Shown here one piece after another: positions 4,488-30,924 of a stretch of DNA of 64,000 bases. Position numbers and translations under genes: made by a program. The first letter of the stretch is position 1. Every line of letters starts with the position of its first letter. The notes below the pieces were generated by a model. It was not told the origin of the DNA, did not search any database, and saw nothing but the letters and a program-made list of their open reading frames with translations. The DNA is from Oceanihabitans sp. 2_MG-2023 (lineage in GTDB: Bacteria; Bacteroidota; Bacteroidia; Flavobacteriales; Flavobacteriaceae): contig NZ_JAUOQT010000003.1 of the NCBI RefSeq assembly GCF_030547245.1, forward strand, positions 186,001-250,000, read 5' to 3'.

Positions 4488-4490
4488 ATT

Positions 4491-6877: not shown

Positions 6878-6881
6878 TTGA
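6831..6881 (+). other. Possible 16-codon leader ORF overlapping the next start
   Basis: ATG at 6831 opens a short frame (MIMYFPQYLILQSRIS) whose TGA at 6879-6881 overlaps the TTG start at 6878. This layout would allow translational coupling. Its start context AGCTATTAATCATGA (6820-6834) is repeated exactly at the Wza start (30115-30129), so it could instead be the remnant of a lost gene. Confidence 0.3.
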
Positions 6882-8920: not shown

Positions 8921-8924
8921 ACTA

Positions 8925-11376: not shown

Positions 11377-13221
11377 ATGTGTGGTATATACGGATCTACA
11401 ATAAAATACACACCTTCACAAGTTAAAGAAAAACTTGCAAGCGCCGCATTTAGAGGTCCAGATGCGACACATTTCACATTTAACGGTAAGGACAAAAACA
11501 TCATTTTTGGTCACAATAGATTATCGATCATCGATTTAGACCCTAGATCCAATCAACCATTAACATATAAACACATTCATATTGTTTTTAATGGAGAAAT
11601 TTATAATTTTTTAGAAATAAAAAAACAACTCCAAACTCAGGGCTATATTTTTAATACAACTAGCGATACAGAAGTACTTTGTGCAGCCTATTTAGAATAT
11701 GGCGAAGCTTTTATAAACAAGCTAAATGGTATGTTTGCCTTTGTTATTTACGACGAAAAACAGCAACGTTTATTTGGTGCTAGAGACCGAATGGGGCAAA
11801 AACCATTTTACTATTATTTGGGTGAAAATGGTTTTGAATTTGCTAGTCAGATTTCCTCCATTCAACTACATAACAGCAATTTATCTATTTCCAGCAAAGC
11901 AATCTCTAGTTATTTAACCTGGGGAAACATTCCTGATCCAAACTCTATTTTTAACGAAGTGCATAAATTAGAAGCTGGCTACTCCTTTATCTTAGACTTA
12001 ACAAATAATAGTTTCAAAAAATCACAATATTGGGATATTTCTAAAAACAATAATTCATTATTTACAGGTTCTTACGAAGATGCAAAACAGGAACTTTCCT
12101 ATTTAGTTAAAGACGCTTCCACTATTCGATTATTTGCAGATGTTCCTGTTGGCGTTTTTCTTTCTGGCGGAATTGACTCTTCGGCAATTGCAGCATTAGC
12201 TTCAAAAAGCACAAACAGTAAAATAAAAACTTTTTCTGTAAAGTTTAATGAAAAAGGCTTCGACGAAAGTAAATATGCACAACAAGTAGCAGATCATTTA
12301 AATACAGAGCACCATGTAATTAATTGTAATTATTCGGAAGGATTAGATTTAATAGAAAACTTTTGTCAATTTTACGATGAACCTTTTGCAGATGCTTCTG
12401 CAATTCCTTCCATGTTATTAGCAAAACACACTAGAAAACATGTAACTGTGGCGCTTTCAGGAGATGGTGGCGACGAGAGTTTTATTGGATACACGCGTTA
12501 CAAATGGATGAAGCAAGTACAAGCACTTTATGCTATCCCTTCTGGTTTAAGAAAATTCTCATCCAACCTTATTGGAAGTCTTCCGTATTACAAATTAAAA
12601 ATGATTGCGCAAGGTTTACAATATGATTCCCTTAACGATTTATACTTAGGGATTAGTAGTGGAATTGATAATTCTTGGCTACAAAACACCAATAATTACA
12701 CCAATGTTTCCGAAGTAAAATACTTGAAAGAAACCGATAAAAATTTATTAGAACGAATTTCAGATTTCGACCTAAAAACCTACTTAAATTGGGATATAAA
12801 CACGAAAGTAGATAGAGCAACAATGGCATATTCTCTAGAAGCAAGAGCTCCGCTTTTAGACTATAGAATTGTAGAATTTGCTCGTTCATTGCCTACAGAT
12901 TTTAAATATCAGAAAAACAATCAAAAACGCATTTTAAAAGATGTTCTTTATGAGCATGTGCCAAAAGAAATATTTAATAGACCAAAAGCAGGTTTTACTA
13001 TGCCTTTTTCTAATTGGTTTAAAAACGATCTTAAAGATTTTGTGTTAGATACTTTAACCGAAGACACCTTAAAACAAATACCAAACATAAACGTAAAAGA
13101 AGTACAATTACGCATTAAACAACACATGGATGGTACTTGGAATAGATATCCACTAATTTGGAAATTATTAGTACTTAAACAATGGTTAGATAAAAACGGC
13201 AACACTTTTACTATAAAATAA
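11377..13221 (+). CDS. asnB: AsnB-like glutamine amidotransferase 1
   Basis: This 614-residue protein has the two domains of glutamine-hydrolysing asparagine synthetase. Cys2 after the initiator Met is the glutaminase nucleophile, FRGPD (25-29) and FNGEIYN (71-77) are glutaminase motifs, and the PP-loop SGGIDSS is at 263-269. The last 200 residues include RATMAYSLEARAPLLDYRI, normal for the family. All key residues appear intact. Its position between the polymerase and a GT4 gene suggests that it amidates a carboxylate on the glycan, for example a uronic acid, as proposed for AsnB-like proteins of O-antigen loci, instead of making free asparagine. Its TAA overlaps the next ATG by 1 base. Confidence 0.85.
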   Translation: MCGIYGSTIKYTPSQVKEKLASAAFRGPDATHFTFNGKDKNIIFGHNRLSIIDLDPRSNQPLTYKHIHIVFNGEIYNFLEIKKQLQTQGYIFNTTSDTEVLCAAYLEYGEAFINKLNGMFAFVIYDEKQQRLFGARDRMGQKPFYYYLGENGFEFASQISSIQLHNSNLSISSKAISSYLTWGNIPDPNSIFNEVHKLEAGYSFILDLTNNSFKKSQYWDISKNNNSLFTGSYEDAKQELSYLVKDASTIRLFADVPVGVFLSGGIDSSAIAALASKSTNSKIKTFSVKFNEKGFDESKYAQQVADHLNTEHHVINCNYSEGLDLIENFCQFYDEPFADASAIPSMLLAKHTRKHVTVALSGDGGDESFIGYTRYKWMKQVQALYAIPSGLRKFSSNLIGSLPYYKLKMIAQGLQYDSLNDLYLGISSGIDNSWLQNTNNYTNVSEVKYLKETDKNLLERISDFDLKTYLNWDINTKVDRATMAYSLEARAPLLDYRIVEFARSLPTDFKYQKNNQKRILKDVLYEHVPKEIFNRPKAGFTMPFSNWFKNDLKDFVLDTLTEDTLKQIPNINVKEVQLRIKQHMDGTWNRYPLIWKLLVLKQWLDKNGNTFTIK

Positions 13222-14315
13222 TGAGTAAACAAAAGATTAAAATAACATTTGTAATTCCTTCGCTAGCTGCTGGTGGAGCAGAACGCATATTATCTTTTGT
13301 TGCTAAAAACATAGACAAAAACAAGTTTCAACCTACTCTATTAGTTGTTGGTTTTGAGAAAGATACTGTATATGATGTTAGTAATCTTGAGGTTGCTTAC
13401 CTAAACAAAACTAGGGTTTTAAAAGCTGTATTTGCTATAGTCAAGCATTTTAGAAGCCAAAAACCTCAAATTGTTGTAAGTTCTATTTTTCACCTAAATA
13501 CGATAATTGCTTATTTATCTATTGGTTTTCCTAAAATAAAGTTTGCAGCAAGAGAAGCTAATGTTTTAAGTGTTTTAGCAGAGCATGATAGAGGTAATAG
13601 ATTAAGTTTTTCAAAAAAAATTATTGTTAAAGCTTACAAACTCGTGGATTGTTTAATATGTCAATCTAAAGACATGCAAAATGACATGATGGCTAATTAT
13701 GGGGTTGCACAAAACAAAACGGCATTAATAAACAACCCTATTACCTTTAATGCAGCACCAAAAACAGAAACAAGAAACAGCAATAAACCGTTACAAATTA
13801 TTACTGTTGGCAGACTAAGTAAAGAAAAAGGACACGCTAGAATTATTGAAGTGCTTTCGAAATTAAAATTTCCCTTTCATTATTTTATGATTGGAGATGG
13901 AAATGAAAAAGAATATATTGTAGACTTAATTCGTACCAAAGGAATTGAAAATCAAGTAACCCAAATAGATTACATCAAAGATGTAGAAGGATATTTGAGA
14001 ATGAGTGACGTATTTTTACTAGGCTCTTATTCCGAAGGATTTCCAAATGCATTAATTGAAAGCTGCGTAGTTGGTACACCAATTATTGCTTTTAATGCGC
14101 CAGGAGGAATTAATGAAATTATTGCTCCAGGCAAAAACGGATTTATTATAAATACAGTAGATGAATGTGTTAAGGAATTAACCAAACTTAACAACAACTA
14201 TTCATTTTCCCCTAAAACTGTAAACCAAATAGTTGTAAACAACTTTAATAGCAAAAAAATTATTAATCAATACGAAGAACTCTTTATTAAACTAACCACA
14301 ACCTATGCTATTTAA
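13221..14315 (+). CDS. Glycosyltransferase family 4
   Basis: This 364-residue GT-B glycosyltransferase starts MSKQKIKITFVIPSLAAGG and carries AAGGAERILSFVA at about residues 16-28. Its donor-site EX7E motif is YSEGFPNALIESCVVGTP near residue 272, followed by APGGINEII. It is the second of three closely similar GT4 enzymes in the block (with 6878 and 16648). Each probably forms a different bond in one repeat unit. The ATG overlaps the stop of the amidotransferase, and its own end overlaps the MBOAT gene by 11 bases, so it is translated as part of one long message. Sugar specificity unknown. Confidence 0.88.
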   Translation: MSKQKIKITFVIPSLAAGGAERILSFVAKNIDKNKFQPTLLVVGFEKDTVYDVSNLEVAYLNKTRVLKAVFAIVKHFRSQKPQIVVSSIFHLNTIIAYLSIGFPKIKFAAREANVLSVLAEHDRGNRLSFSKKIIVKAYKLVDCLICQSKDMQNDMMANYGVAQNKTALINNPITFNAAPKTETRNSNKPLQIITVGRLSKEKGHARIIEVLSKLKFPFHYFMIGDGNEKEYIVDLIRTKGIENQVTQIDYIKDVEGYLRMSDVFLLGSYSEGFPNALIESCVVGTPIIAFNAPGGINEIIAPGKNGFIINTVDECVKELTKLNNNYSFSPKTVNQIVVNNFNSKKIINQYEELFIKLTTTYAI

Positions 14316-15714
14316 CTCTATTGAATATCTAATATTTCTACCTACAGTTTTTATACTGTATTGGCTGCTAAATAAAGATCTAAAAAAGCAAAATATTTTA
14401 TTATTAGTTGCTAGTTATTTCTTTTATGCTTATTGGGATTGGACGTTCCTTTCCTTAATTATTTATAGTTCTTTTATAGACTATTATATAGGTATTAAAA
14501 TCTACGAATCAAATTCCGTGAAAGCTAAAAAAAACTGGCTTCGACTAAGTTTAGTTTCTAACTTAGGACTTTTGGCTGCTTTTAAATATTTCAACTTTTT
14601 TACAGAAAGTTTTGCCGAAATGATGCTACTTTTTGGTTGGCAAGTAGATCATGTTACTTTAAATATAATACTTCCTGTAGGTATTAGTTTTTACACGTTT
14701 CAAACCTTGAGTTATACCATAGACGTTTATAGAGATAAACTAAAACCAACAAAAGACATTGTTGCATTTTTTACATTTGTTAGTTTGTTTCCGCAATTAG
14801 TTGCAGGACCTATAGAAAGAGCTTCTAACCTACTACCACAAATTGAAAATGTACGTAAGTTTAAGCAAAAATGGTTTCATGATGGTATCTTTCAAATTGC
14901 CGTAGGTTTATTCCGAAAAGTAGTAATTGCAGATAATTTAGGGGTTTATGTAGACTCTATTTACGCCAGTCCAGACATTCATAACTCGAGTACTTTACTT
15001 ATTGCTACCATATTTTATTCGTATCAAATATATTTTGATTTTGCAGGATATTCAGATATTGCAATTGGTAGTGCTAAATTATTAGGTTTTAAATTTAACC
15101 AAAACTTTAATCTACCTTATTTTTCTAATTCTATTGCAGATATATGGCAACGTTGGCACATATCTTTATCCTCATGGCTCCGCGATTATTTATACTATTC
15201 TTTAGGAGGAAGTCGTGGCACCGCATTTATGACCTTTAGAAACCTAATGCTTACCATGATTCTAGGAGGTCTTTGGCATGGAAATACATGGAACTTTGCA
15301 ATTTGGGGAGCAATTCATGGCTTACTACTAGTTACCGAAAAAATACTTTTCACGGCTTTTAAAATAAAAAATACAGGATGGATTGGTTATATATACCCTT
15401 TCTGCTTAGTACTTGTTTCTTGGGTTTTCTTTAGGGCTAAAGATTTTGAAGCTGCAGGATTAATCGTGAAAAAATTAATTTTCTTCGATTTTAAAATACC
15501 ATTTATAGGAGATACAAATGCTATTGTTACTGGCTTATCTATGTTATTAATTGGTATGTCTTTAGACCTTTACCTGTTTCGATCTAAACAAGATTTAGAA
15601 ACTTTAGGTCGTAAACTAAGCCCAATAAAACTTGGTGCTGCAGTTTCTGTTATCATACTTCTTATTAGTTTATTCTACTCGACATCTAATAACTTTATTT
15701 ATTTTCAATTTTAA
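14305..15714 (+). CDS. MBOAT-family O-acyltransferase (AlgI-like)
   Basis: The 469-residue membrane-bound O-acyltransferase has about ten membrane segments. Family motifs are RWHISLSSWLRDYLY at 283-297, GGLWHGNTWNF at 321-331 and the catalytic-type histidine at 338 in GAIHGLL. Relatives such as AlgI pass acetyl groups across the membrane to periplasmic partners that acetylate polysaccharide hydroxyls. The next gene, 5 bases downstream, encodes an SGNH-type protein with a membrane anchor, the expected partner. Together they should O-acetylate the exported glycan. The start overlaps the preceding glycosyltransferase gene by 11 bases. Confidence 0.92.
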   Translation: MLFNSIEYLIFLPTVFILYWLLNKDLKKQNILLLVASYFFYAYWDWTFLSLIIYSSFIDYYIGIKIYESNSVKAKKNWLRLSLVSNLGLLAAFKYFNFFTESFAEMMLLFGWQVDHVTLNIILPVGISFYTFQTLSYTIDVYRDKLKPTKDIVAFFTFVSLFPQLVAGPIERASNLLPQIENVRKFKQKWFHDGIFQIAVGLFRKVVIADNLGVYVDSIYASPDIHNSSTLLIATIFYSYQIYFDFAGYSDIAIGSAKLLGFKFNQNFNLPYFSNSIADIWQRWHISLSSWLRDYLYYSLGGSRGTAFMTFRNLMLTMILGGLWHGNTWNFAIWGAIHGLLLVTEKILFTAFKIKNTGWIGYIYPFCLVLVSWVFFRAKDFEAAGLIVKKLIFFDFKIPFIGDTNAIVTGLSMLLIGMSLDLYLFRSKQDLETLGRKLSPIKLGAAVSVIILLISLFYSTSNNFIYFQF

Positions 15715-15719
15715 GTATT

Positions 15720-16655
15720 ATGGATAAGAAACAAATTATAAAATCAGTAAAGCTTATTGCTTTCATTATTGTATTATCTTTTATTATAGATAAAGCAGCA
15801 TACTTCACTATTACTAAAATTAGCGATACGGTTTTTTCTGGTCAAGCAATTGGAAAATTAAACCATTATTTATCGATAAAAGACACAACAAAACTTATTG
15901 TTTTTGGGAGCTCTAGAGCAAATCACCATATTGATGTTAAAAAACTAAAACAGTCTAGTTATAATATGGGTGTGGATGGTAAATTTATAGCATACAGTGC
16001 TACATTAATTAAAATGCTACCCAAAGATGTTAAGCAAACAGTTATACTTCATGTAGACCCTAATGTCGCATATAGAGAGTATTATAATAGAGAAGAAACG
16101 AAAACGTTAATGGTAAAATACCATACCAACGATATTATAAAAAAAGAGCTTCAAAGATCCGATTTAGTGAACCCCTTACAAGAATTTTATTGGTGTGTAG
16201 ATTATAATGGGTTGGTTTTAGGTATTCTTAAAAATGCAATTTTTCCTAAATATGACTTAGAAACCTATTATGGGTACGACCCTATGGAAGTACACAGTAC
16301 TCAAAAAGAAATATTTCAAAATATATTAGCTAGAAACGATAGTATTAAATGTAAAACGGACTTAAAACTCAATCCGTTATTTAATAGTTATCTAAAAGAA
16401 ATTGACTCTTTTTGCAAACGTAACAACAAGAAGCTTATCACTATAACTACTCCTATTTATATCGATAAATGTAAGAACGATAATATTGCGTTGACAAAAG
16501 TTTTAAAAGACTTAAACATTGAGTATCATGATTACAGTGATTTTTTTAAAGATAACAACCATGTAGATTACTGGGCAGATATTGCACACATGTCTAATGT
16601 AGCTTCTGAAATTTTCTCGAAAGCTTTAAGCGAAGATTTATATATTCATGATTAA
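15720..16655 (+). CDS. Membrane-anchored SGNH-like protein, probable partner of the MBOAT protein
   Basis: This 311-residue protein has one N-terminal membrane segment (about residues 10-31) and a periplasmic domain. The segment VFGSSRANHH at 61-70 matches SGNH block I with the serine nucleophile at 64 or 65. NMGVDG at 82-87 gives the block II glycine, and D287-x-x-H290 in ADIAHMS supplies the Asp/His pair of block V. AlgJ/AlgX-like and DltD-like partners of MBOAT proteins have this layout. I infer that it completes O-acetyl transfer to the glycan. The sequence is divergent, so the SGNH call rests on these short motifs and on gene order. It overlaps the next gene by 8 bases. Confidence 0.7.
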   Translation: MDKKQIIKSVKLIAFIIVLSFIIDKAAYFTITKISDTVFSGQAIGKLNHYLSIKDTTKLIVFGSSRANHHIDVKKLKQSSYNMGVDGKFIAYSATLIKMLPKDVKQTVILHVDPNVAYREYYNREETKTLMVKYHTNDIIKKELQRSDLVNPLQEFYWCVDYNGLVLGILKNAIFPKYDLETYYGYDPMEVHSTQKEIFQNILARNDSIKCKTDLKLNPLFNSYLKEIDSFCKRNNKKLITITTPIYIDKCKNDNIALTKVLKDLNIEYHDYSDFFKDNNHVDYWADIAHMSNVASEIFSKALSEDLYIHD

Positions 16656-17799
16656 GAAAAAAAATATAGCTTTATTTGTTGCTTCTATTGGTTTTGGCGG
16701 AACAGAACGTGTGGTTGCAAGGTTAGCGAGTGAACTTGTAAAACATTACAATGTAACTCTGGTGCTTATATACGAAAATATAGACTTACCTATACATAAG
16801 GATGTAAATATTATTTGCATGACCACAAAAAAGGAACATTATGATAATTCTTCCTTTTTTAAATTAGGCAGTTTTTTATTAAGTGCTTACAAGTATCCAA
16901 AAATCATCAAACAAAATGGTATCGATATTAGCATCTCTTTTCTAATAAAACAAAACATTATTAATGGATATACTAAAATGGTAAATCCAAAATTAGAAAC
17001 GATAATTAGTGAGCGGTGTTTCCCTTCAAAAACCTATGGCAGCTTTGGGAAACAATTAGTGAAACATTTTTACAATAAAAACGGTTCCCTTTTCTCTAAT
17101 TCCATACATATTAATCAGGATTTACAAAACAACTTTGAGTTAAAAATTCCTGCACAAGTGGTTTACAACCCAATTTATACACGTGAAGAAAAACCTGCTT
17201 TTCTAGATTATTCAAATTCTAAAACACCTTTTCAAATTGTAGCAGTAGGAAGGTTAAACCCTGTAAAAAACCAAGAGAGTTTAATAAAAAGTATTGCACT
17301 AATTAACGAATTAGTTTCCTTAAATATTTACGGAATTGGCGCCTTGGAAGAAGAATTAAAAACACTTTCAACATCATTAAACCTTAATAAAACAATAACT
17401 TTTAAAGGAAATAGCAATACTATAGACCAAGAAATAGTAAAACACCATTGTTTAGTATTAACATCGCTTTCTGAAGGTTTTCCTAATGTGATTCTAGAAG
17501 CTATGTCACTTGGTGTTCCTGTTATTGCAACCAATTGCATGTCTGGGCCTTTAGAGTTATTAAATGACAATGAAGAGGTACAAATTAAGCAAGGAGATTT
17601 TTATAAAGCTAAATACGGATTACTAGTAAATGTAAACGATAACAAAGGTTTAGCAAAAGCAATTACCTATTATAAAAACAATAATTCGGTAAGAGAAAAC
17701 TACAGTGCTTTAAGCTTTAACAAAGCAAAACAATACGATATTTCTGTAATAGGAAAGCAACTAAAAACACTAATAGACTCGCGTGTATGTGTGGAATAA
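16648..17799 (+). CDS. Glycosyltransferase family 4
   Basis: The 383-residue GT-B enzyme has FGGTERVVARLASEL at about residues 16-30, and the EX7E motif SEGFPNVILEAMSLGVP near residue 270, followed by ATNCMSGPLELL. These match the GT4 enzymes at 6878 and 13221, so three copies may have arisen by local duplication. It overlaps the SGNH gene by 8 bases at its start and the second amidotransferase by 13 bases at its end, showing one compact transcript. It should add one sugar of the repeat unit on the cytoplasmic side. Donor unknown. Confidence 0.88.
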   Translation: MIKKKNIALFVASIGFGGTERVVARLASELVKHYNVTLVLIYENIDLPIHKDVNIICMTTKKEHYDNSSFFKLGSFLLSAYKYPKIIKQNGIDISISFLIKQNIINGYTKMVNPKLETIISERCFPSKTYGSFGKQLVKHFYNKNGSLFSNSIHINQDLQNNFELKIPAQVVYNPIYTREEKPAFLDYSNSKTPFQIVAVGRLNPVKNQESLIKSIALINELVSLNIYGIGALEEELKTLSTSLNLNKTITFKGNSNTIDQEIVKHHCLVLTSLSEGFPNVILEAMSLGVPVIATNCMSGPLELLNDNEEVQIKQGDFYKAKYGLLVNVNDNKGLAKAITYYKNNNSVRENYSALSFNKAKQYDISVIGKQLKTLIDSRVCVE

Positions 17800-19673
17800 A
17801 TGGCATAATAAGTAAAGACAATAATCGCGAAGCGATAAGCAATTCATTAAAAAAAATGAATCAGCTCATCTTTCATCGCGGACCAGATGAAGATGGTTTT
17901 TGCATAGAAAACCATAAACAAATCACTGTTGCAATGGCAATGCGAAGACTTTCTATTATTGACTTAAGCACAGGAAAACAACCCATTTATAATGACGATA
18001 AGAGCATCGTAATTGTATTTAATGGCGAAATTTATAATTACCAAACTTTAAAAGCACAGCTAGAAAACAAAGGTGTTATTTTTAAAACAAAGTCTGATAC
18101 TGAGGTCATTTTAAGACTATACGAAACAAAAGGGGAACGTAGCTTTGCCGAACTAGATGGCATGTTTGCTTTTAGTATTTATGATAAAAAACGAAACAAG
18201 GTTTTTATTACACGAGATTTTTTTGGAGAAAAACCCTTATATTACTATCAAGACAAACAAAATTTCTTTTGGGCTTCCGAATTAAAATCTATCGTTAGCA
18301 ATCTAGTTACAAAACCTCAAATTTCTAAAGAAGGATTAAACTTATATTTTCGTTTAACCTATACTCCTGCACCGTTTACCATATATGATAAAATTTTTAA
18401 ACTAGAAGCTAATCATTACATCGATTATGATTTAAACGAAAAGCAGTTCACTATTCATAAAATAAACGCGGTTAAAAAAGAAAAGCAAGATATCGCTTTC
18501 GCGGAAGCTAAAAAGCAATTAAAAAACCGAATGCTTCAAAGTATAGAAAGCCGTTCTATTAGTGATGTTCCAATAGGCACTTTTCTTTCTGGAGGAGTAG
18601 ATTCTTCCATTGTAAGTTTAGGGTTATCTCAAATGAACAATCAAAAAATAGACACTTTTTCTATAGGATTTGATAAAGCTTCATTTGACGAAACAGACAA
18701 ATCAAAACTAGTAGCCAAGCGGATTAACAGCAATCATCATGAGTTTATAATTTCTGAAAAAGATATTGCAAAAAACATTCATGAAATTCTTTTAAATTTC
18801 GATGAACCTTTTGCAGATTCCTCTGCGCTACCAACCTACTTGGTGGCGAATAAAACAAGAGGCTTTGTAAAGGTAGCCTTAACGGGTGATGGTGGCGATG
18901 AAGTTTTTGGTGGTTATAATAAATACTATATTGGCAAACTAAACAGCAAGTACACAAGTATAGTTCCAGAATTTTTACATAATGCTTCCAAAAGTGTTTT
19001 AAACAAACTATTAAACACCAAAGACGATAATCGAGGAAAGCGATTTAAGCTTAAAAAAGCAGTTAATGCAATACATTATAATAACGAACATTATTGGAAT
19101 ATCATTTCTTTAGGTTTTTCGAACGACACGGAAAAACTTTTAAAACCGGATAGCATTCAGTTAAACACTTTTAATTACTATAAAGAGAAATCTGGTATTA
19201 AAAAACCAAAAACCGTTCATGAGTATCGCGAAATAGATAGACACATGAGTCTAGAAGGAGATATGCTAGTTAAGGTTGACAGAACAAGCATGCAAAATTC
19301 GTTAGAATGTAGAGCTCCTTTTTTAAACAAAACCCTTTGGGAATTTGCAAACAGTTTACCAGAAGACTATTTATTAAAAGGATATAGCAAAAAGCATATT
19401 TTAAAAGAAGCTTTTAAAGAAGAGTTTCCAGAAAATTTTTTAGAAAAATCTAAAAAAGGATTTGTGGTTCCTGTTGGAGATTGGCTACGTTCTGGTTTAA
19501 AACTAGAATTAGAAAGCTATATTGAGACTTCGTTTTTAGAAAAACAAAACCTTTTTAACATAGACTATATTAAGCAATTGGTAAAAAACCACTTAACAGG
19601 TAAAGAAGATAACAGCTATAAGGTTTGGACGTATTATACCTTTCAGAAATGGTATGTTAATTTGTATGTTTAA
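17787..19673 (+). CDS. asnB: AsnB-like glutamine amidotransferase 2
   Basis: This 628-residue protein is a second complete asparagine-synthetase-type enzyme. It has Cys2, FHRGPDEDG at 29-37, FNGEIYN at 78-84, and the PP-loop SGGVDSS at 268-274. ALTGDGGDEVFGGYNKYY and SLECRAPFLN in the synthetase domain are also intact. It differs clearly from the copy at 11377, so it is not a recent duplicate, and two such genes in one polysaccharide block suggest two amidation steps or two acceptors. A housekeeping asparagine role cannot be excluded. It is last in the first plus-strand run, and its end overlaps the antisense TupA-like gene by 4 bases. Confidence 0.85.
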   Translation: MCGINGIISKDNNREAISNSLKKMNQLIFHRGPDEDGFCIENHKQITVAMAMRRLSIIDLSTGKQPIYNDDKSIVIVFNGEIYNYQTLKAQLENKGVIFKTKSDTEVILRLYETKGERSFAELDGMFAFSIYDKKRNKVFITRDFFGEKPLYYYQDKQNFFWASELKSIVSNLVTKPQISKEGLNLYFRLTYTPAPFTIYDKIFKLEANHYIDYDLNEKQFTIHKINAVKKEKQDIAFAEAKKQLKNRMLQSIESRSISDVPIGTFLSGGVDSSIVSLGLSQMNNQKIDTFSIGFDKASFDETDKSKLVAKRINSNHHEFIISEKDIAKNIHEILLNFDEPFADSSALPTYLVANKTRGFVKVALTGDGGDEVFGGYNKYYIGKLNSKYTSIVPEFLHNASKSVLNKLLNTKDDNRGKRFKLKKAVNAIHYNNEHYWNIISLGFSNDTEKLLKPDSIQLNTFNYYKEKSGIKKPKTVHEYREIDRHMSLEGDMLVKVDRTSMQNSLECRAPFLNKTLWEFANSLPEDYLLKGYSKKHILKEAFKEEFPENFLEKSKKGFVVPVGDWLRSGLKLELESYIETSFLEKQNLFNIDYIKQLVKNHLTGKEDNSYKVWTYYTFQKWYVNLYV

Positions 19674-20596
19674 GAAACCTCTGTTTTATGTAATTGCAAT
19701 AACTTTCCAAAATCTGCATCATAATGTTCTGGAGTAAAAGCACCACAACCAGACTCGGCATGAAAGGTTAATTCGCCAAAATAAATGGTATCGTTTACGT
19801 GATAAAAATCTACTCGTAGATAACAAAAGTCTTTTGCAAAAACTTCACCTAAAGTGACCATTTTATCATATAGTTTCGGTTTTTTCACTTCACTACCTGC
19901 TTTATAAACCCATTGTAAATCCATTAAATTCCAATTTATATCATACAAATTTCGTTTATGGTTTTTCTCTCTATCAATATCTACTTGTGTAAAAACAAGT
20001 TTTCCATTAAAATAATGCATTTTATAATCAAAAGGAATGCCGCCACTTTTATCCATTAACAATTCCTCAACAACTACTCTACGCTCAATATTTTTGTATT
20101 GCCACTCTTTATACCTATAGTAATAATTAATATTTAAAAACTTAGACAGTGTGTTTTGTACATTAATCCAATTATGTTGCGTTTTATCTCTAACAATAAT
20201 ACCTCCAGAACTATCATGATTCGTTTTAATAATAAATGGATAATCTGGTAAGTTTTCTGGTACAATTTCTCTAACGTTTTTTGTTTCTAACACTAAAGGA
20301 ATCAGGTACTCCTCACCTATTTTATCTTTTACATATTCTCGAACCTTATATTTATCGGCACAAATGGTATGCACAGAAGTTCTATCGTTTAATTTTAACC
20401 ATTGTAGTTTTTCGTTAAAAGTCTTTGGATTCTCTAAATCTGGCACATAGCCTAAATTCTTTATAAACTCACTTTTTATAACAGTTTCATCTGAAACTAA
20501 AGCATAACGAAAATATTCATACACGTTTTTAAATGGCTGAATAACAGCAAAACCCAATCGGGTATTATGATAGATATTAGATATAAATTGCTTCAT
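19670..20596 (-). CDS. TupA-like ATP-grasp protein 1
   Basis: This 308-residue protein matches the ATP-grasp TupA family. Motifs are NPKTFNEKLQWLKL at 56-69, ADKYKVREYV at 80-89, the nucleotide-binding FIIKTNHDSSGGIIVRDK at 121-138, and a late metal-binding part with YLRVDFYHVNDTIYFGE. TupA is named after teichuronopeptide synthesis in alkaliphilic Bacillus, where a glutamate/glucuronate polymer is made; many annotations call the family glycosyltransferase, but the fold is that of carboxylate-amine or carboxylate ligases. Here it could attach an amino acid or other amine to a glycan carboxylate. It is 1 base from its paralog at 20598 and runs against the surrounding genes. Confidence 0.85.
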   Translation of the reverse strand: MKQFISNIYHNTRLGFAVIQPFKNVYEYFRYALVSDETVIKSEFIKNLGYVPDLENPKTFNEKLQWLKLNDRTSVHTICADKYKVREYVKDKIGEEYLIPLVLETKNVREIVPENLPDYPFIIKTNHDSSGGIIVRDKTQHNWINVQNTLSKFLNINYYYRYKEWQYKNIERRVVVEELLMDKSGGIPFDYKMHYFNGKLVFTQVDIDREKNHKRNLYDINWNLMDLQWVYKAGSEVKKPKLYDKMVTLGEVFAKDFCYLRVDFYHVNDTIYFGELTFHAESGCGAFTPEHYDADFGKLLQLHKTEVS

Positions 20597-20597
20597 T

Positions 20598-21551
20598 TTA
20601 AGCTTTTGTTTTTATCTTAGTTAAATCTAATAAGTTTCCTAATTCTAGATCATATTTTTCAGGATGAATGGTTTCTAAACCACTACCATGATGAAAAGTA
20701 ACTTCACCAAAGTACACAGTATCTTCAAAATCATACACATCTATTCTAGCATAGCAAAAGGGCTTCGATAATTTTTCAGCAACACTTATCATTTCGTTTA
20801 AATTCTTTGGTTTTTCTAAATCTCTTCCGTTATCCCAAAGTATTTTTCCTTTATTCCATAAAGACCAAGTAAAAGGCAATAGTTTCCAATCGGTATTGTA
20901 TAAGTTACGTTTATGATTGGTATATCGATCAATATCCACTTGAATCACTTCAACTTTACCATGAAAACAATGAATTTTATAATCAAAAGGAATTTCGTCT
21001 GCATCATTAACCAATAATTTTTCTGCAATAACACAAGGCTTTATATTTTTGTATTGCCATTCTTTCCCAGAATAATAATAGTTTTTACTAAGGAGCTTTT
21101 TAAAATGTTTTTGTGTTTTTTTCCAATTAACAACTGCTTTATCACGAACAATAATTCCACCAGAACTATCATGATTTGCTTTCATAATAAAAGGATATAC
21201 TGGAAAATTAGAAGCAATTACATCTTTTGGATGATAACTTTGAAACACTAACGGAATTAAATATTGTGATCCAACAGCCTCCTCTACATACTTCCTAACT
21301 TTAAATTTATCTGCACAAGTAGTGTGTAAAGCTGTTCTATCATGTAGCTTTAGCCAATTAATTTTTTCATTTAAGGTTTTCGGATTGTTTAAATCTAACG
21401 ATCTACCAAAGCGTTTTTTAAAATTTTGTTTTAAAAAAGTAGCATCGTCAAGATAATGCGATCTGTAGTAATGATGTATTTGTTCTACAGAATCGATTAC
21501 AGTTTTTCCAATCCAAGTATTATGGTATAAATACTTAGCAATCTTTAACAT
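20598..21551 (-). CDS. TupA-like ATP-grasp protein 2
   Basis: This protein of about 317 residues is a paralog of the neighbour at 19670. With the start at the ATG at 21551, its motifs fall at the same residue numbers as in that paralog: NPKTLNEKINWLKL at 56-69, ADKFKVRKYV at 80-89 and FIMKANHDSSGGIIVRDK at 121-138. That collinearity is why I prefer it to the ATG at 21569 or the TTG at 21584. The late segment YARIDVYDFEDTVYFGE is also conserved. The two genes form a two-gene antisense operon and probably act in sequence or as a pair, joining residues to glycan carboxylates. Substrates are inferred only. Confidence 0.85.
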   Translation of the reverse strand: MLKIAKYLYHNTWIGKTVIDSVEQIHHYYRSHYLDDATFLKQNFKKRFGRSLDLNNPKTLNEKINWLKLHDRTALHTTCADKFKVRKYVEEAVGSQYLIPLVFQSYHPKDVIASNFPVYPFIMKANHDSSGGIIVRDKAVVNWKKTQKHFKKLLSKNYYYSGKEWQYKNIKPCVIAEKLLVNDADEIPFDYKIHCFHGKVEVIQVDIDRYTNHKRNLYNTDWKLLPFTWSLWNKGKILWDNGRDLEKPKNLNEMISVAEKLSKPFCYARIDVYDFEDTVYFGEVTFHHGSGLETIHPEKYDLELGNLLDLTKIKTKA

Positions 21552-21632
21552 AAATAGCGTTTTGTCCATTCTAAAGTAGCACAAATTTTAGTAAACAAAA
21601 AACTTATCTTATTTTAGTTGTAAATTTAATTC

Positions 21633-22727
21633 ATGAATAAAAAAATCTGTCTTGTTGGTGGCGAAGATGTACATAAACGCATAGCCTTATCTAACTATCT
21701 TAAAGAAGCCGGTTTTCAGGTTACCATTCTTGGAACAAGTACTCGTGAATTCCCCGATTACATCACTTATGTTCCTTATAATTTGGTTAGAAGCTTCTCT
21801 CCTTCAGCAGACAGAAAAACATTAAAATGGTACAGGAAGTTTTTTGCAGAAAACGCATTTGATGTTATTCATACGTTCGATACCAAGCCTGCCTTTTTAT
21901 TGCCAATTGCTTTAAAAAAAACAAAAACACCAATAACAAGAACAGTTACAGGACTAGGAACGATATTTATGTCTAACAGCTTGTTTAGCTTTGCTTTAAG
22001 AAGGGTTTACTATACTCTTCATCGAAGTATAAAACACCGAGTTTTTAAAACTGTTTTTCAAAACTACGACGATAAAGATCTATATAAGTCACATCAACTT
22101 ATTACAGAAAAAAACTATGAGCTTGTGTTTAGTAGCGGAATTGAATTAAAAAACATCAACAAAAAAGCAAAACGAAACAACACACCTTTCACCTTTATTT
22201 GTGTTGCAAGATTGGTTTACGAAAAGGGAATTATTAACCTATTAGAAGCTGCAAAAATTTGCAAAAGCAAAGGGTTCGAATTCAAAATACTACTCGTTGG
22301 CCCTTTAGAAGAAAATAGCAAACGCTTAAACCAAGAAATACTAGACCAATACAAAGATATTATTGATATTCTTGGAAGCAGAAATGATGTTTTTGAGCTA
22401 CTTTTATCTTCAGATGCTTTTGTATTACCAACCTTTAGAGAAGGTTTTGCAAGAGTTTTACTCGAAGCTGCAGCAGTTGGGCTACCAATGGTTGCTACTA
22501 ATGTTACTGGAGTTAGAGAATTTGCGAGACATGAAAAAGAAGCCTTATTAGTAGAAGTAAAAAACTCTATAGCTCTAGCAGATGCAATGATTAGATTAGC
22601 TACAGATAAGGATTTAGCCAGTCAATTAGCCGAAAATGCATTAAAACACGTTGAAAAGTTTAGTTTAGAAAACATTTCTAAACAATATATTAATATCTTT
22701 AACCAAGCTATTAATCATAAAATATAA
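21633..22727 (+). CDS. Glycosyltransferase family 4
   Basis: This 364-residue GT-B protein is a more distant GT4 member than the three at 6878, 13221 and 16648. It begins KKICLVGGEDVHKRIALSNY, has TRTVTGLGTIFMS near residue 105, typical of the WbpT/CapM-like branch often acting just after the initiating transferase, and ends its donor site with the EX7E motif REGFARVLLEAAAVGLP near residue 270. It starts 49 bases from the TTG end of the divergent TupA gene and leads a new plus-strand run: aminotransferase, sugar transferase, deacetylase. It is thus a good candidate for the second sugar of the repeat unit. Confidence 0.88.
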   Translation: MNKKICLVGGEDVHKRIALSNYLKEAGFQVTILGTSTREFPDYITYVPYNLVRSFSPSADRKTLKWYRKFFAENAFDVIHTFDTKPAFLLPIALKKTKTPITRTVTGLGTIFMSNSLFSFALRRVYYTLHRSIKHRVFKTVFQNYDDKDLYKSHQLITEKNYELVFSSGIELKNINKKAKRNNTPFTFICVARLVYEKGIINLLEAAKICKSKGFEFKILLVGPLEENSKRLNQEILDQYKDIIDILGSRNDVFELLLSSDAFVLPTFREGFARVLLEAAAVGLPMVATNVTGVREFARHEKEALLVEVKNSIALADAMIRLATDKDLASQLAENALKHVEKFSLENISKQYINIFNQAINHKI

Positions 22728-22732
22728 CGAAG

Positions 22733-23938
22733 ATGAAAATTCCATTTTCACCTCCTTACATTAACAATAATGTAATTAAAGAAATCAAAGAAGCCTTAGA
22801 TTCTGGATGGATTACTACTGGTCCAAAAGTTAAAAAACTAGAGGAACTTGTTTGCCATTACACAAAAGCACCTAATGCACTTGGTGTAAACTCTGCTACT
22901 TCCGGTTTAATGCTAGCCTTAAAATGGTTTGGTATTGGTGAAGGTGACGAAGTAATTATTCCTGCATACACCTATGCAGCAACGGCTTTAGCTGTAATAC
23001 ATGTTGGAGCAACACCAATAATGGTAGACATAGAAGACGATTTTAATATTTCGTTAAAAGGAATTAAAGATGCAATAACAGAAGACACTAAGGCTATTAT
23101 TCCTGTAGACATTGCTGGTTGGCCTTGCGATTATGATGCTATAAATAAATTAGTTGACAACACTAGAGATTTATTTCACCCATCCCATGAAAATCAAGAA
23201 AAACTAGGAAGAATAGTAGTTATCGCAGATGCAGCTCATGCTATTGGTGCAGAATATAAAAACAAATGTATTGGAGCAACTACAGATATCACAGTATTTT
23301 CCTTTCATGCAGTTAAAAATGTGACTACCGCAGAAGGCGGAGCCATTTGCTTAAACCTTCCAGAGCCATTCAATAATCAAGAAGAATACCTTTTTTTACG
23401 CTGTTTTTCATTAAACGGACAAACAAAAGATGCTTTTACAAAGTCGAAAGCTGGTGGTTGGAGATATGATATTATTTACCCTGGCTTAAAAATGAATCTT
23501 CCAGACTTACTAGCCGCTGTTGGCGTAGCACAACTACCAGAATACTTTGAAAGTGTTCTAGATAGACGAAAAGAAATATTTACATGGTATCAAGAATATT
23601 TTTCATCTAAAACCTGGGCTATCTTACCTCCTTTTCAAAATGAAGAAAAAACATCTTCCTGTCATTTATATGCTTTACGAATTAAAAATGCTTCCGAAAC
23701 ACAACGTGATATAATTATAGATAAAATTTCTAAAGAAGGCGTTTCGGTTAATGTACACTTTCAACCCTTACCATTATTAAGTTTATTTAAATCTTATGGC
23801 TACAAAATAGAAGATTACCCAAATGCTTTTAACAATTATAAAGCAGAAATATCTTTACCTATTTATCCGCAATTAACAGGTAAAGAATTACAATATATAG
23901 TAAGCACAATTACAAATGCTGTAGAATCTACATTATGA
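22733..23938 (+). CDS. DegT/DnrJ/EryC1-family PLP sugar aminotransferase
   Basis: The 401-residue protein is a sugar-nucleotide aminotransferase of the DegT/DnrJ/EryC1/StrS family, acting in the cytoplasm with glutamate as usual amino donor. The pattern SGWITTGPKVKKLEEL (24-39), GVNSATSGL (51-59), ADAAHAIGAEY (165-175) and the PLP-binding lysine K195 in SFHAVKN identify it. It is next to an initiating sugar transferase gene, with a 4-base overlap, so its product may be the amino sugar that primes the glycan, or another amino sugar in the repeat. A second family member is at 27062; the two are clearly different proteins. Confidence 0.9.
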   Translation: MKIPFSPPYINNNVIKEIKEALDSGWITTGPKVKKLEELVCHYTKAPNALGVNSATSGLMLALKWFGIGEGDEVIIPAYTYAATALAVIHVGATPIMVDIEDDFNISLKGIKDAITEDTKAIIPVDIAGWPCDYDAINKLVDNTRDLFHPSHENQEKLGRIVVIADAAHAIGAEYKNKCIGATTDITVFSFHAVKNVTTAEGGAICLNLPEPFNNQEEYLFLRCFSLNGQTKDAFTKSKAGGWRYDIIYPGLKMNLPDLLAAVGVAQLPEYFESVLDRRKEIFTWYQEYFSSKTWAILPPFQNEEKTSSCHLYALRIKNASETQRDIIIDKISKEGVSVNVHFQPLPLLSLFKSYGYKIEDYPNAFNNYKAEISLPIYPQLTGKELQYIVSTITNAVESTL

Positions 23939-24525
23939 CAAAACGATTGTTTGATATATGCTTTTCCTTATTAGGATTAATAATATTATTTCCTGTTTTA
24001 TTGGTAATTGCTATACTAATTAAACTAGAATCTAAAGGTTCTATTTTTTTTAGACAAATACGTGTTGGGAAAAACAATCAGGATTTTAAAATTTTTAAAT
24101 TCAGAACCATGTTTGTTGGATCGGACAAAAAAGGCTTATTAACATTAGGAGACAACGATACTAGAGTTACAAAAATTGGCTACTTTTTACGAAAATATAA
24201 GTTAGATGAAATACCACAACTTATAAACGTATTACAAGGCACAATGAGTTTTGTTGGTCCAAGACCTGAAGTACGCAAATACGTTAACCTGTACTCTAAA
24301 GAAGATTTACAAATACTTCAAGTAAAACCAGGAATTACAGACTATGCCTCTATTGCTTTTAGAGATGAAGCAGAACTTTTAAAAGACACAGTAGATCCTG
24401 AAAAACTTTATATAGAAGAAATTATGCCTCAAAAAATTGCTTTAAACAAGAAATATATTGTTAACCCTTCTGTGTTTACAGACATTAAGATTATTCTTAA
24501 AACATTTTTAAGTATTATAAAATGA
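23935..24525 (+). CDS. Initiating sugar-phosphate transferase (monotopic PGT, PglC-like)
   Basis: This 196-residue protein is a small bacterial sugar transferase that puts the first sugar phosphate on undecaprenyl phosphate. It has one N-terminal membrane hairpin (about residues 5-30), KGSIFFRQIRVGKNNQDF with KIFKFRTM directly after, the catalytic Asp-Glu pair in YKLDEIPQLINV and MSFVGPRPEVRKY. It lacks the long N-terminal domain of WbaP and WcaJ, so it has the minimal PglC form, which typically uses UDP-diNAc-bacillosamine-like or related amino sugars. That agrees with the aminotransferase genes and the dehydratase in this locus. It overlaps both neighbours by 4 bases. Confidence 0.92.
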   Translation: MTKRLFDICFSLLGLIILFPVLLVIAILIKLESKGSIFFRQIRVGKNNQDFKIFKFRTMFVGSDKKGLLTLGDNDTRVTKIGYFLRKYKLDEIPQLINVLQGTMSFVGPRPEVRKYVNLYSKEDLQILQVKPGITDYASIAFRDEAELLKDTVDPEKLYIEEIMPQKIALNKKYIVNPSVFTDIKIILKTFLSIIK

Positions 24526-25499
24526 AACTCGATCAAGGACATTTAGTAATCTCATTAGACTTCGAATTATTTTGGGGCGTTTTTGATGTTCGTTCTTTAG
24601 AAAGTTATAAATCACATCTTGAAAAAGTTACAGAGATTGTACCAAGATTATTAAAGCTAAGTGACAAATACAACATTAAACTAACCTTTGCTTCTGTTGG
24701 CTTCCTTCTTGCAAAGAATAAAGAAGAAATCATTCGGTTTAGCCCAAAAATAAAACCTAGTTACAGTAATTCTAATTTTAGCCCTTATCGTTTATTGAAT
24801 GAAATTGGCAACAACCAACATGAAGATCCTTATCATTACGCAACTTCATTAGTTGATATAATTAAAAAAAATAAAAACCACGAGATTGGTTCACACACCT
24901 TTTGCCATTACTACTGCAACGAAATAGGACAAACTGCAAAAGAGTTTGAAGCAGACCTGTTAGCCAGCATAAACATAGCTAAACAACAAGACATTACTAT
25001 AAAAAGCATTGTATTTCCTAGAAATCAAATAAACGAAACATATCTAAAAATATGTGCAAATCATGGTATTTTAAATTATCGAGGAATTGAAAAACACTGG
25101 ATGTACAACACAAAAGACACGAAGCAGCTAGGCAAAACAAAAAATAGAATTTATAGATTATTAGATACTTACTTTAATATTTCTGGACATAATACACATG
25201 AATTAGAAATACATTATGGTTTAGTAAATATAGCTTCTAGTAGATTTTTAAGACCGTACAGTAATTTTTTAAGCTTTTTAGAACCTATGAAAATCCAAAG
25301 GATTAAAAGAGGAATGACATATGCTGCAAAAAAAAAACAAGTATATCATTTGTGGTGGCATCCACATAATTTTGGAGATAATACAGATAAAAATTTTAAA
25401 GCTTTAGAAACACTTTTCATACACTATAGCATGTTAAAATCTACGTACAATTTTAATTGTAAAACCATGGCGCATTTATCTAAGATAACAAAAAATTAA
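24522..25499 (+). CDS. Polysaccharide deacetylase (NodB-type) family protein
   Basis: The 325-residue protein has the metal-binding elements of the NodB homology domain: SLDFELFWGV (10-19, catalytic and metal-binding Asp) and GSHTFCHYYC with the H-x-x-x-H pair near residues 126-130. No signal peptide is seen, unlike secreted chitin-type deacetylases, so it may act on a nucleotide-linked or lipid-linked precursor in the cytoplasm. Removing an acetyl from an N-acetyl sugar would create a free amine, a possible acceptor for the ligases or transferases of the locus. It overlaps the sugar transferase gene by 4 bases and converges on the gene at 25496 with a 4-base overlap. Confidence 0.85.
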   Translation: MKLDQGHLVISLDFELFWGVFDVRSLESYKSHLEKVTEIVPRLLKLSDKYNIKLTFASVGFLLAKNKEEIIRFSPKIKPSYSNSNFSPYRLLNEIGNNQHEDPYHYATSLVDIIKKNKNHEIGSHTFCHYYCNEIGQTAKEFEADLLASINIAKQQDITIKSIVFPRNQINETYLKICANHGILNYRGIEKHWMYNTKDTKQLGKTKNRIYRLLDTYFNISGHNTHELEIHYGLVNIASSRFLRPYSNFLSFLEPMKIQRIKRGMTYAAKKKQVYHLWWHPHNFGDNTDKNFKALETLFIHYSMLKSTYNFNCKTMAHLSKITKN

Positions 25500-26728
25500 T
25501 CAAACAACACCATATAACTAGATTTCTCTCCTACAACATAATAACTATCTTTACTTGAATCTTTAATTTCATACACACACAATCCTGAAATCGCTTCTGG
25601 ATTCTTGTATAATTCATCAAAAATTATTGGTTTCAAAAAAGCATAGGTTTTATTTTCTATATCTATTAACTGCATTGCATTAACGTCTGCATGCGCTTCT
25701 AATTTTTCAATAACATATTTTCTTCTAGCAACAGTTTCTGTCTTTTTACCTTTTAATACAAACTTAAGCTTTACGTATTTTTCGTTAACATTTTTATCTC
25801 TCAAATATTGCTTAAAAGCATACTTGGTTTTTATAAATTTTGCTATTGCAGACGCTATAATACTAGTAGAATCGTATAAAACATGATTTTCATAAGTATA
25901 CGCATTGTTAGTCCAACGGTTTTTATACTCATACTCTCCTTTCGAAAAATCATAAATAGTATATCCATTTTCAAAACACCAATGAAACAACTTAATAATT
26001 GTAGTATGACCAAGATTAAACCTATAATAATCCGTATCAAAAGATGTTATTGCATAAAACATCGTAGTATCAGACAGAAAACTTAAAGAAACACCTATTG
26101 GTTTATCTTTATTACTAATCGTAATTAGTAATGCGCGTTTTTCCTGAAGCATATGAAATATTAAATCATAATAATACTCCCAAGTTTCTAAAATATCATT
26201 ATCCTTTTGTAATGTATTAAAACGTTTCGTTAATAAAGCTTTAAAACCATTCATAATTACTGAATACGTTTCAGTGTCTATGGACTCGTTATAAATAGAA
26301 TAGGTAATATCGAAGCATGCTTCTAGCCTTTCTTGGTTTCTCCTAAACTTATATCTTGTATTCGATTTAAATTGACTTTTTGCAAAAGCATCATAACTTT
26401 CAAAAGCATTTAATTCTGCTAAAAAACCTTTGTATTGCGGTATCTTAAAACATTTTAAAGAAGAAGGGCGCTGGGTTTTCAAATCAAAATACGTTGGCAC
26501 ATCATGTATTAAAAAAGCTTTTCCCTTAAAGTCTTTTTCTTCTACATCTACAGAATAAGACATCCCATTAGTAATGTTTTTTCCAACATTATAATACAAC
26601 GGAAACACACTGTTTTTCACAAAACCAACATTTGCGATAGACTTAAAAATCAAACCTTGTTTAGAGGCGTTAAAATGCTTTGACCAAACAGCAGTAAAGG
26701 TCCTGGAAACGAATGGATTATTTTTCAT
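25496..26728 (-). CDS. FemAB/BioF2-like acyl or aminoacyl transferase (GNAT fold)
   Basis: The protein of about 410 residues looks like the BioF2-type acetyltransferase (Acetyltransf_6) family. FKSNTRYKFRRNQERLEACF near residues 125-145 and the later YDFSKGEYEYKNRWTN near residue 260 are hallmarks. Members move acyl or aminoacyl groups onto cell-surface precursors, as FemX and related proteins do from aminoacyl-tRNA, while others are acetyltransferases. I use the ATG at 26728; the longer frame begins with GTG at 26749. It is the third antisense gene of the block, converging on the deacetylase gene. Function on the glycan is inferred from position. Confidence 0.75.
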   Translation of the reverse strand: MKNNPFVSRTFTAVWSKHFNASKQGLIFKSIANVGFVKNSVFPLYYNVGKNITNGMSYSVDVEEKDFKGKAFLIHDVPTYFDLKTQRPSSLKCFKIPQYKGFLAELNAFESYDAFAKSQFKSNTRYKFRRNQERLEACFDITYSIYNESIDTETYSVIMNGFKALLTKRFNTLQKDNDILETWEYYYDLIFHMLQEKRALLITISNKDKPIGVSLSFLSDTTMFYAITSFDTDYYRFNLGHTTIIKLFHWCFENGYTIYDFSKGEYEYKNRWTNNAYTYENHVLYDSTSIIASAIAKFIKTKYAFKQYLRDKNVNEKYVKLKFVLKGKKTETVARRKYVIEKLEAHADVNAMQLIDIENKTYAFLKPIIFDELYKNPEAISGLCVYEIKDSSKDSYYVVGEKSSYMVLFD

Positions 26729-27061
26729 AAAATGATTAATAGCAAGCACTAAATTATTATTTAAAAAGAATATATCCTAACACAACACTTTATTAAAAAC
26801 AAAAAAAACAACAACTCTAATCTTATAATTTTGTATATTTATCACCATCTATAACTAGAAGCTATAGAGTCTCTCCTAATAACACATTGATCTAGCAAAA
26901 AAGACGAAATAAATAAACTGTTGTTTTATATATTAATAAAGCATAAAAGCGTGTATAAATTTAGATAAAACTTAATACCTTTAGTATTTAAATCAAAGAA
27001 CGTTTAAATGAGTTCTTTGTCGTATTTTTTTGATTAATACTTTAAAAACAACAATATTTAT
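26729..27061. other. Divergent intergenic region between the two polysaccharide blocks
   Basis: About 330 bases separate the antisense BioF2-like gene from the second block. I find no gene here. The right half holds a TAATTTTG -7-like box at 26826-26833, a small hairpin AATAC/GTATT near 26974-26988 and the stronger stem-loop described at 26994-27031. The region very likely drives block two separately. Confidence 0.5.
26994..27031 (+). promoter_or_regulatory. Hairpin with T-run ahead of block two: possible attenuator
   Basis: CAAAGAAC at 26994-27001 pairs perfectly with GTTCTTTG at 27012-27019 around a 10-base loop, and a run of seven T follows at 27025-27031. The start codon of the aminotransferase comes 30 bases later. 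This is the form of an intrinsic terminator placed in the leader of an operon, as at loci controlled by antitermination. Confidence 0.45.
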
Positions 27062-30914: not shown

Positions 30915-30924
30915 AAAGCCCGTA

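Follow-up and report, generated by a model that had tools for sequence, protein, structure and literature searches.

The 64,000 nt window analysed here, positions 186001–250000 of contig NZ_JAUOQT010000003.1 from Oceanihabitans sp. 2_MG-2023 (Flavobacteriaceae; host genome 3.69 Mb), carries a single Wzx/Wzy polysaccharide locus that spans window positions 6878 to 33294. Within it lie two AsnB-like amidotransferases, two TupA-like ATP-grasp proteins, a CE4/NodB-like deacetylase and a GNAT/FemAB-like transferase, which a sequence-only reading had grouped as one module for amidation and aminoacylation of a glycan. Families were assigned by Pfam and NCBIfam profile scans with curated cut-offs of 30 window proteins, all genes of the locus included; Wzx, Wzy, a phosphoglycosyltransferase, Wza and Wzc were all found, and the six genes just named are open and full-length, at the places and of the kinds that had been claimed for them.

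The locus opens with a GT4 glycosyltransferase (6878), a GT2 glycosyltransferase (7973), a Wzx/MurJ-type flippase (8925) and a Wzy-type polymerase (10259), assigned by Pfam and together occupying 6878..11374 (+), in an order that is the same in the related loci L134 and L131. There follow AsnB1 (11377..13221, +, 614 aa), a glutamine-dependent amidotransferase predicted to form a uronamide, with an adjoining GT4 glycosyltransferase (13221..14315, +; Pfam, gene order kept in relatives), an MBOAT O-acyltransferase (14305) with its partner 15720 (14305..16655, +), and a further GT4 glycosyltransferase (16648..17799, +; Pfam) adjoining AsnB2 (17787..19673, +, 628 aa). On the opposite strand stand the predicted amidoligases TupA1 (19670..20596, −, 308 aa) and TupA2 (20598..21584, −, 328 aa, TTG start). 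The forward strand then resumes with GT4d (21633..22727, +), which from its Pfam family and its position one gene from PglC is probably the second sugar transferase, a DegT-family aminotransferase (22733) and the PglC-type phosphoglycosyltransferase (23935; together 22733..24525, +), and the deacetylase (24522..25499, +, 325 aa). The FemAB-like gene (25496..26749, −, 417 aa) is again on the opposite strand, and the locus ends with a LegC/PglE-type aminotransferase (27062) and a PglF-type membrane 4,6-dehydratase (28197; 27062..30095, +), then Wza (30126) and Wzc (30925) for export and co-polymerization (30126..33294, +), these four and the DegT/PglC pair being assigned by profile scans. The MBOAT protein scores 154 bits with the DltB model, below its cut-off of 375, and 15720, which has a GSSR motif and for which no Pfam or NCBIfam family was found in the scan, is presumably SGNH/DltD-like; the two are likely an O-acylation pair, and they are missing from the short form of the locus in Xanthomarina (L134).

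The gene set is conserved beyond chance, as recurring order and low dN/dS show. Within the stretches covered, Lacinutrix sp. C3R15 (L133) and an uncultured Flavobacteriaceae record (L205) keep an identical order from Wzy to Wzc at 75–95% identity, and L132 keeps it from GT4b to PglC, where its contig ends, and has one additional frame, of 330 codons, separating TupA1 from AsnB2. The shorter form in Xanthomarina sp. F1114 (L134) has both TupA genes, AsnB1 and the deacetylase, and no homolog of AsnB2, the FemAB-like gene, the MBOAT gene or 15720. Between the window and L205, dN/dS was 0.025–0.113 in the 15 genes compared, with dS of 0.69–1.45. The nearest named records to TupA2 among the matches listed, which may omit records of the host genome itself, are an Oceanihabitans metagenome-assembled genome (87%), an uncultured Flavobacteriaceae record (85%) and Lacinutrix sp. 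C3R15 (83%).

Amidotransferases, deacetylase and FemAB-like transferase

Both AsnB proteins contain PF00733 and PF13537 and retain an MCG amino end and the NGEIYN, SGGxDS and GDGGDE motifs, which, like the HTxxH of the deacetylase, we take to be catalytic signatures. They exceed the TIGR01536 cut-off (454 and 460 bits vs 267), so that domains and score alike place them in the AsnB type, and the best match of their profile among solved structures is 7ylz, named a hydroxyamidotransferase. The host genome encodes a separate AsnB of 558 aa (C30:16289-17251) and another on contig C26. A FastTree of 54 full-length AsnB rows taken from loci (G083:C14 entered twice, the partial row L168 dropped) resolved two clades, clade 2 being set apart from the rest with support 1.0 and clade 1 with 0.93; the C26 protein falls outside both, and the AsnB of G068:C1 is marginal (32 vs 30% identity). 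AsnB1 belongs to clade 1 and AsnB2 to clade 2, and every one of the twelve loci with two AsnB genes has one of each (window, L133, L205, L138, L142, L144, L146, L150, G092, G082, G114 and G083:C14), a count in which the window, L133 and L205 are near copies and the clade-1 protein of L142, L144 and L146 is more distant (43–44%). Considering this one-of-each rule, we infer that AsnB1 and AsnB2 are different enzymes with different jobs.

The deacetylase matches its NodB/CE4 family weakly (27.5 bits vs a cut-off of 23.1) with HTxxH intact, and the FemAB-like protein scores 54.7 bits with PF13480 (cut-off 22); starting the latter at its codon 8, an ATG, gives 26728, the end of the interval originally marked out. 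Searches of 120 Flavobacteriaceae genomes, one per genus, with a deacetylase profile (A3) and a FemAB-like profile (A2) at E 1e-20 found the deacetylase in 17 and the FemAB-like gene in 32, and both in the same genome in 11 (4.5 expected, P 4e-4, a value that ignores relatedness among genomes, as do the other co-occurrence values below, and for which the five deacetylases of A3 all came from TupA loci). The matched stretches lie less than 150 bp apart in seven of the eleven, less than 10 kb apart in three more, and on separate contigs in G015. In five of the six full islands (defined below) having both, the exception being G114, the two genes adjoin PglC or lie one gene beyond it, and because of this proximity our guess is that they act on the PglC-linked sugar. 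Of the 15 FemAB-like proteins compared, six weakly match an arginyl-tRNA-protein transferase model (best 5e-4; the window protein itself has no match) and one, also weakly, the FemAB_like model (9e-7). The window deacetylase gave no match to TIGR03006, to which two of the five aligned members match weakly (best 1.4e-5).

Elsewhere, eight genomes (G005, G015, G017, G054, G061, G063, G104 and G118) have six to eight FemAB-like matches each, mostly in one tandem run, as counted from at most 15 candidates scored per genome and including some matches with stops. The three loci read, L227, L256 and L257, have six or seven FemAB-like genes of 25–50% mutual identity, near PglC in all three and near an MBOAT gene in two. 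Such runs look like stepwise addition.

A variable island at a fixed chromosomal site

The locus is an island of variable content whose site is fixed, with alanine dehydrogenase/4491 on one side and proline dehydrogenase/aroB on the other. In the window the left border is formed by an alanine dehydrogenase-type gene and gene 4491 (3288..4859, +), which adjoin proline dehydrogenase in empty sites, and the right border by proline dehydrogenase (−) and aroB (+), identified by profile matches at 33374..35704. Proline dehydrogenase was detected in 114 of the 120 genomes, and the stretch past its 3' end was read in 28 of these (20 longer, 8 shorter), taken mostly from the top of a similarity-ranked list and classed by reading their gene content. 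Five sites are empty (G031, G013, G045, G079 and G059), with alanine dehydrogenase and the 4491 homolog followed by proline dehydrogenase and no intervening gene of 90 codons; 15 are stubs with PglC and/or aminotransferase/PglF only; five have Wza and a Wzc-sized gene (G072, G042, G026, G007 and G083); one has a single other gene (G056), and two lack this context (G033 and G106). The site was also covered elsewhere, being full in the window, G035, G082, G092, G094, G114, G004, G037 and G012, and a stub in G041 and G099.

Eleven of the 14 Wza/Wzc sites qualify as full islands, that is, PglC and two or more GT4-profile genes are visible there as well. AsnB is present in all eleven, the FemAB-like gene in ten (G012 being the exception), the deacetylase in six and TupA in two (the window and G012); G035, G082, G092, G094 and G114 had been chosen for holding the deacetylase, which biases its count upward and perhaps that of the FemAB-like gene too, and the G012 locus had been chosen for holding TupA. 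The alanine-dehydrogenase border is visible in five of the eleven (window, G035, G037, G082 and G092). In the literature on flavobacterial wza/wzc loci we found no description of this island. At the left end of the island lies a gene (4915-6435) whose product carries a C-terminal domain of the type IX secretion kind, and homologs of it occur in the G035, G092 and G083:C14 loci.

The TupA-like pair and its linkage to the other genes

TupA of alkaliphilic Bacillus, which serves teichuronopeptide, a Gram-positive wall polymer, is the namesake of the PF14305 family. TupA1 and TupA2 match PF14305 at 178.3 and 191.5 bits (cut-off 25) over profile positions 1–239 of 241, and thus have the full domain. 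Across 60 TupA sequences 17 residues are invariant, among them K135, E188, D201, K203, R280, D282 and E294, to which we assign presumed ATP-grasp roles. Searching solved structures by sequence yielded no usable match for TupA, the deacetylase or the FemAB-like protein. Of ten plasmid records listed, out of 141 matching TupA2, eight are annotated 'ATP-grasp fold amidoligase family protein'.

PF14305 scored above its cut-off in 26 of the 120 genomes (28 at E 0.001), with 38 genes. Thirty TupA gene clusters, the window included, fall into two settings. Thirteen are polysaccharide loci; the other 17 are copies of one conserved locus, probably for core lipopolysaccharide, in which GT2, GT9 and Kdo-kinase-type genes are flanked by a dapD-like gene on one side and a Sua5/poly(A) polymerase pair on the other. 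The 18 TupA genes of this second setting form a single clade (99/98), beside which sits a polysaccharide-locus gene of G080. The host genome itself has a third TupA-like gene, of that separate clade, in such a locus (C29:26383-27108, L002), as in 16 other loci. TupA1 and TupA2 belong to different subclades (supports 95/87 and 91/89), each of which also takes one copy from G019, G089 and Xanthomarina L134, so that the pair appears to be older than the genus; we reject a recent tandem duplication on this ground, although both forks are drawn open.

We reject an indivisible AsnB–TupA–FemAB module, which the sequence-only reading had implied. At the island site AsnB, the FemAB-like gene and the deacetylase recur in islands that have no TupA, and TupA recurs without them. 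Of 434 confirmed TupA matches the best 80 were taken with flanks of about 10 kb; AsnB lies nearby in 19 of these, all in flavobacterial records, and AsnB, FemAB-like gene, deacetylase and TupA stand together in L133, L205 and L141 (the deacetylase being cut by the edge in L141), and in G051 when longer flanks are taken. We compared twelve PglC loci holding TupA (G099, of the long PglC type, left out) with 19 controls, which are all recognised loci of the 26 TupA genomes that have a short PglC and no TupA; the ambiguous G117:C5:226464, 28 kb from a TupA gene, was left out, double hits in G037 and G083 were counted once, and two fragmentary PF02397 hits (G022, G075) and one G075 hit on a short contig were unused. 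AsnB was present in 7/12 TupA loci and 5/19 controls (P 0.13). Since class-matched controls without TupA (at least three GT4-profile genes) hold AsnB in four of five, the link between TupA and AsnB is to the locus class. Among the eight features compared, with P uncorrected, the deacetylase (5/12 vs 0/19, P 0.005) and a HAD phosphatase (5/12 vs 1/19, P 0.02) were in excess, the PylC-like gene gave P 0.056 and the other five P >0.1. The excess of the deacetylase is not general: outside the control set, eight loci have this gene and no TupA (G083:C14, G035, G092, G082, G094, G070, G114 and G081), and by genome TupA and the deacetylase co-occur in 6 cases (3.7 expected, P 0.13) and TupA and the FemAB-like gene in 11 (6.9 expected, P 0.04). 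The comparison of related flavobacterial loci that had been proposed as a check bears out the deacetylase with the FemAB-like gene, and shows no TupA–AsnB linkage above that of the locus class.

Decoration of the glycan and competing explanations

Each of these kinds of enzyme has a precedent. In Porphyromonas gingivalis the AsnB-type WbpS makes a uronamide, VimE is a putative deacetylase and VimA presumably transfers the amino acid (Ser or Gly) of a linking sugar (PMC7468200), the Wbp/Vim product being 2-N-seryl-3-N-acetylglucuronamide (PMC7468200, PMC13086638); linking sugars of Prevotella and Porphyromonas are treated in PMC11969387 and PMC13086638. In Campylobacter jejuni the TupA-like C-terminal domain of Cj1438 (Cj1438C) joins serinol-phosphate or ethanolamine-phosphate to the carboxylate of glucuronic acid, and Cj1435, a HAD phosphatase, removes the phosphate (PMC11800379).

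We suggest, with a probability of roughly 0.55, that the island enzymes amidate acidic sugars and may add an amino acid to an amino sugar. Going by their families, PglF and an aminotransferase would make a UDP-4-amino-deoxysugar with which PglC would start the repeat unit. The CE4-like enzyme may strip the N-acetyl group from an amino sugar, as proposed for VimE, and the FemAB-like enzyme, in a VimA-like role, may acylate the freed amine, most likely with an aminoacyl group, as gene pairing and the VimE/VimA precedent suggest. By homology, AsnB1 and AsnB2 would use glutamine to convert the carboxylates of two different uronic acids to primary amides, and in this lineage TupA1 and TupA2, by analogy with Cj1438, may in addition attach an amine or amino acid to one or two carboxylates at the expense of ATP. 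Uronate donors (of the ManNAcA, GlcA and GlcNAcA/GalNAcA types) would be supplied by other loci of the genome, where the genes are present, and the MBOAT/15720 pair would O-acylate in the periplasm; overall, the carboxylates of the glycan would be masked. The earlier expectation of glycan amides is thus supported by AsnB homology and the WbpS precedent, amino-acid addition by the FemAB-like enzyme is plausible through the VimE/VimA parallel, and the proposal that the ATP-grasp pair joins residues to carboxylates stands by the Cj1438 precedent; a deacetylase that frees amines fits its pairing with the FemAB-like gene, except that in the Vim precedent the amine is freed for the FemAB-like enzyme and not for an ATP-grasp pair.

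Several observations weigh against this reading. The AsnB proteins score under the TIGR03108 (eps_aminotran_1) cut-off (518.6 and 518.2 vs 816.9 bits), although that model is nonetheless the top NCBIfam match for both. Three of the 14 Wza/Wzc sites lack AsnB in the stretch covered, two of them cut short: G026 (13 kb) has a FemAB-like gene, PglC and one GT4, G007 reaches a contig end at 6.4 kb, and G083:C3 (20 kb) has only PglF, Wza and a Wzc-sized gene, both AsnB genes of G083 being on contig C14. No uronate-making gene was found among the scanned island proteins; outside the island the host genome has a gene above the WecC cut-off (538 vs 459), with TuaD-, TviB- and TviC-like genes under theirs. 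The TupA profile matches PF14397 and PylC-like ATP-grasp sets at E 0.013 and 0.043 (probability 3.4% and 1.2%), in alignments that are weak and colinear. A HAD phosphatase, as in Campylobacter, is encoded in the five PglC and TupA loci counted above and not in the window. TIGR03019 is matched by none of the 15 FemAB-like proteins at E up to 1, and four of them weakly match a crotonyl-transferase GNAT model (best 5.8e-5), which suits plain acylation equally.

It is possible, at well under even odds, that the FemAB-like enzyme and the deacetylase perform a simple N-acyl swap without an amino acid and that TupA joins phospho-amines as in Campylobacter. Flavobacterium psychrophilum has a 4-amino sugar with a non-amino-acid N-acyl group that a PglD homolog is predicted to add (PMC6519341), PF13480 is named an acetyltransferase domain, and the crotonyl-transferase matches point the same way; against this, relatives show the weak arginyltransferase and FemAB_like matches given above, and the FemAB-like runs of other genomes resemble stepwise addition. 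Rather doubtful is the view that these are independent decorations which share a locus, each on its own residue and with no module. TupA occurs in only two full islands, TupA and AsnB are each often found without the other, and their linkage is no higher than that of the locus class; yet the deacetylase and the FemAB-like gene co-occur well beyond chance, AsnB is constant in full islands, and the one-of-each rule has no exception among two-AsnB loci.

We consider it quite improbable that AsnB, deacetylase and FemAB-like gene, like the Porphyromonas Wbp/Vim set, build a linking sugar for the anchoring of type IX cargo, even though the trio of enzyme kinds equals WbpS, VimE and VimA and a search of the genome with the type IX C-terminal domain family gave 88 matches, one of them (4915) bordering the island. 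To our knowledge type IX secretion is near universal in Flavobacteriaceae, which counts against such a role for genes found in only 32 and 17 of 120 genomes; the Wza/Wzc/Wzy set indicates a secreted polymer, and no WbpB was found among the 30 window proteins or the scanned proteins of the C26 and C1 loci, the rest of the genome not having been searched for it. Finally, that the AsnB proteins are ordinary asparagine synthetases, as their TIGR01536 scores would allow, is highly improbable, and we reject it: their scores are higher with TIGR03108, a polysaccharide-linked model (518, below the cut-off), the separate 558-aa AsnB lies at C30, and in the loci examined the island AsnB genes adjoin glycosyltransferases.

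The preferred reading, amidation with possible amino-acid addition, draws on parts of known kinds whose combination looks new. Likened by kind, from descriptions only, the Wbp/Vim set also devotes AsnB-type, CE4 and GNAT/FemAB-like enzymes to one glycan, and the window shares such a trio with the G035, G082, G092, G094 and G114 islands; the window differs in having it in one Wza/Wzc polysaccharide island with two AsnB clades and a TupA pair, and no Wbp genes were found among the island proteins. VimA is reported to match TIGR03019 (PMC7468200), unlike the window protein and the 15-member set. The HS:2 capsule cluster of C. jejuni likewise contains a TupA-like ATP-grasp domain, as described for Cj1438, whereas the window TupA proteins are stand-alone, two per locus and without a phosphatase. 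Exosortase (XrtA/PEP-CTERM) exopolysaccharide loci, for example that of Nitrosomonas eutropha, combine AsnB-like, FemAB-like and deacetylase genes (PMC7468200); the window proteins are below the TIGR03108 cut-off with no match to TIGR03019 or TIGR03006, and no exosortase was found among the 30 scanned window proteins. The AsnB homologs WbpS and WbqG of O-antigen clusters are linked to N-acetylgalacturonamide (cited in PMC7468200); compared by description, the present locus differs in having two AsnB genes and its uronate-donor genes elsewhere. The claim that no described system has this combination agrees, for the full set, with what the open-licence literature searched contains, but AsnB, FemAB-like gene and deacetylase as neighbours are already published for exosortase loci (PMC7468200).

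If the preferred reading is true, amide-forming enzymes of separate kinds mask the charges of a surface polysaccharide that recurs among flavobacteria, which would change genome-based prediction of polysaccharide structure, phage and lectin binding and degradability. A bolder version, which we hold unlikely, would place three amide chemistries in one glycan (two primary uronamides from AsnB clades that cannot replace each other, amines or amino acids ligated to carboxylates by the TupA pair, and an aminoacyl group that the deacetylase/FemAB-like pair adds to the reducing-end sugar linked by PglC), with the tandem FemAB-like relatives building an ordered peptide on a polysaccharide; if true, these would be a Gram-negative counterpart of FemXAB chemistry. 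The two AsnB clades and two TupA subclades offer assayable pairs, and the empty, stub and full sites a natural test-bed in marine strains.

Elsewhere in the host genome, C26:118000-177999 contains a second locus with AsnB, accompanied by MBOAT and TviB/TviC-like genes and including a TviB/WbpA-like dehydrogenase, a DegT aminotransferase and a hexapeptide transferase, and C1:700000-745000 contains a locus with NeuB, a LegC-type aminotransferase and WecB/WecC. The PglC loci of G001, G012, G068, G089 and G117 have PylC-like ATP-grasp and HAD phosphatase genes near PglC, and three of these loci also have a second FemAB-type gene there; where a HAD gene accompanies TupA, the arrangement resembles Cj1435/Cj1438.

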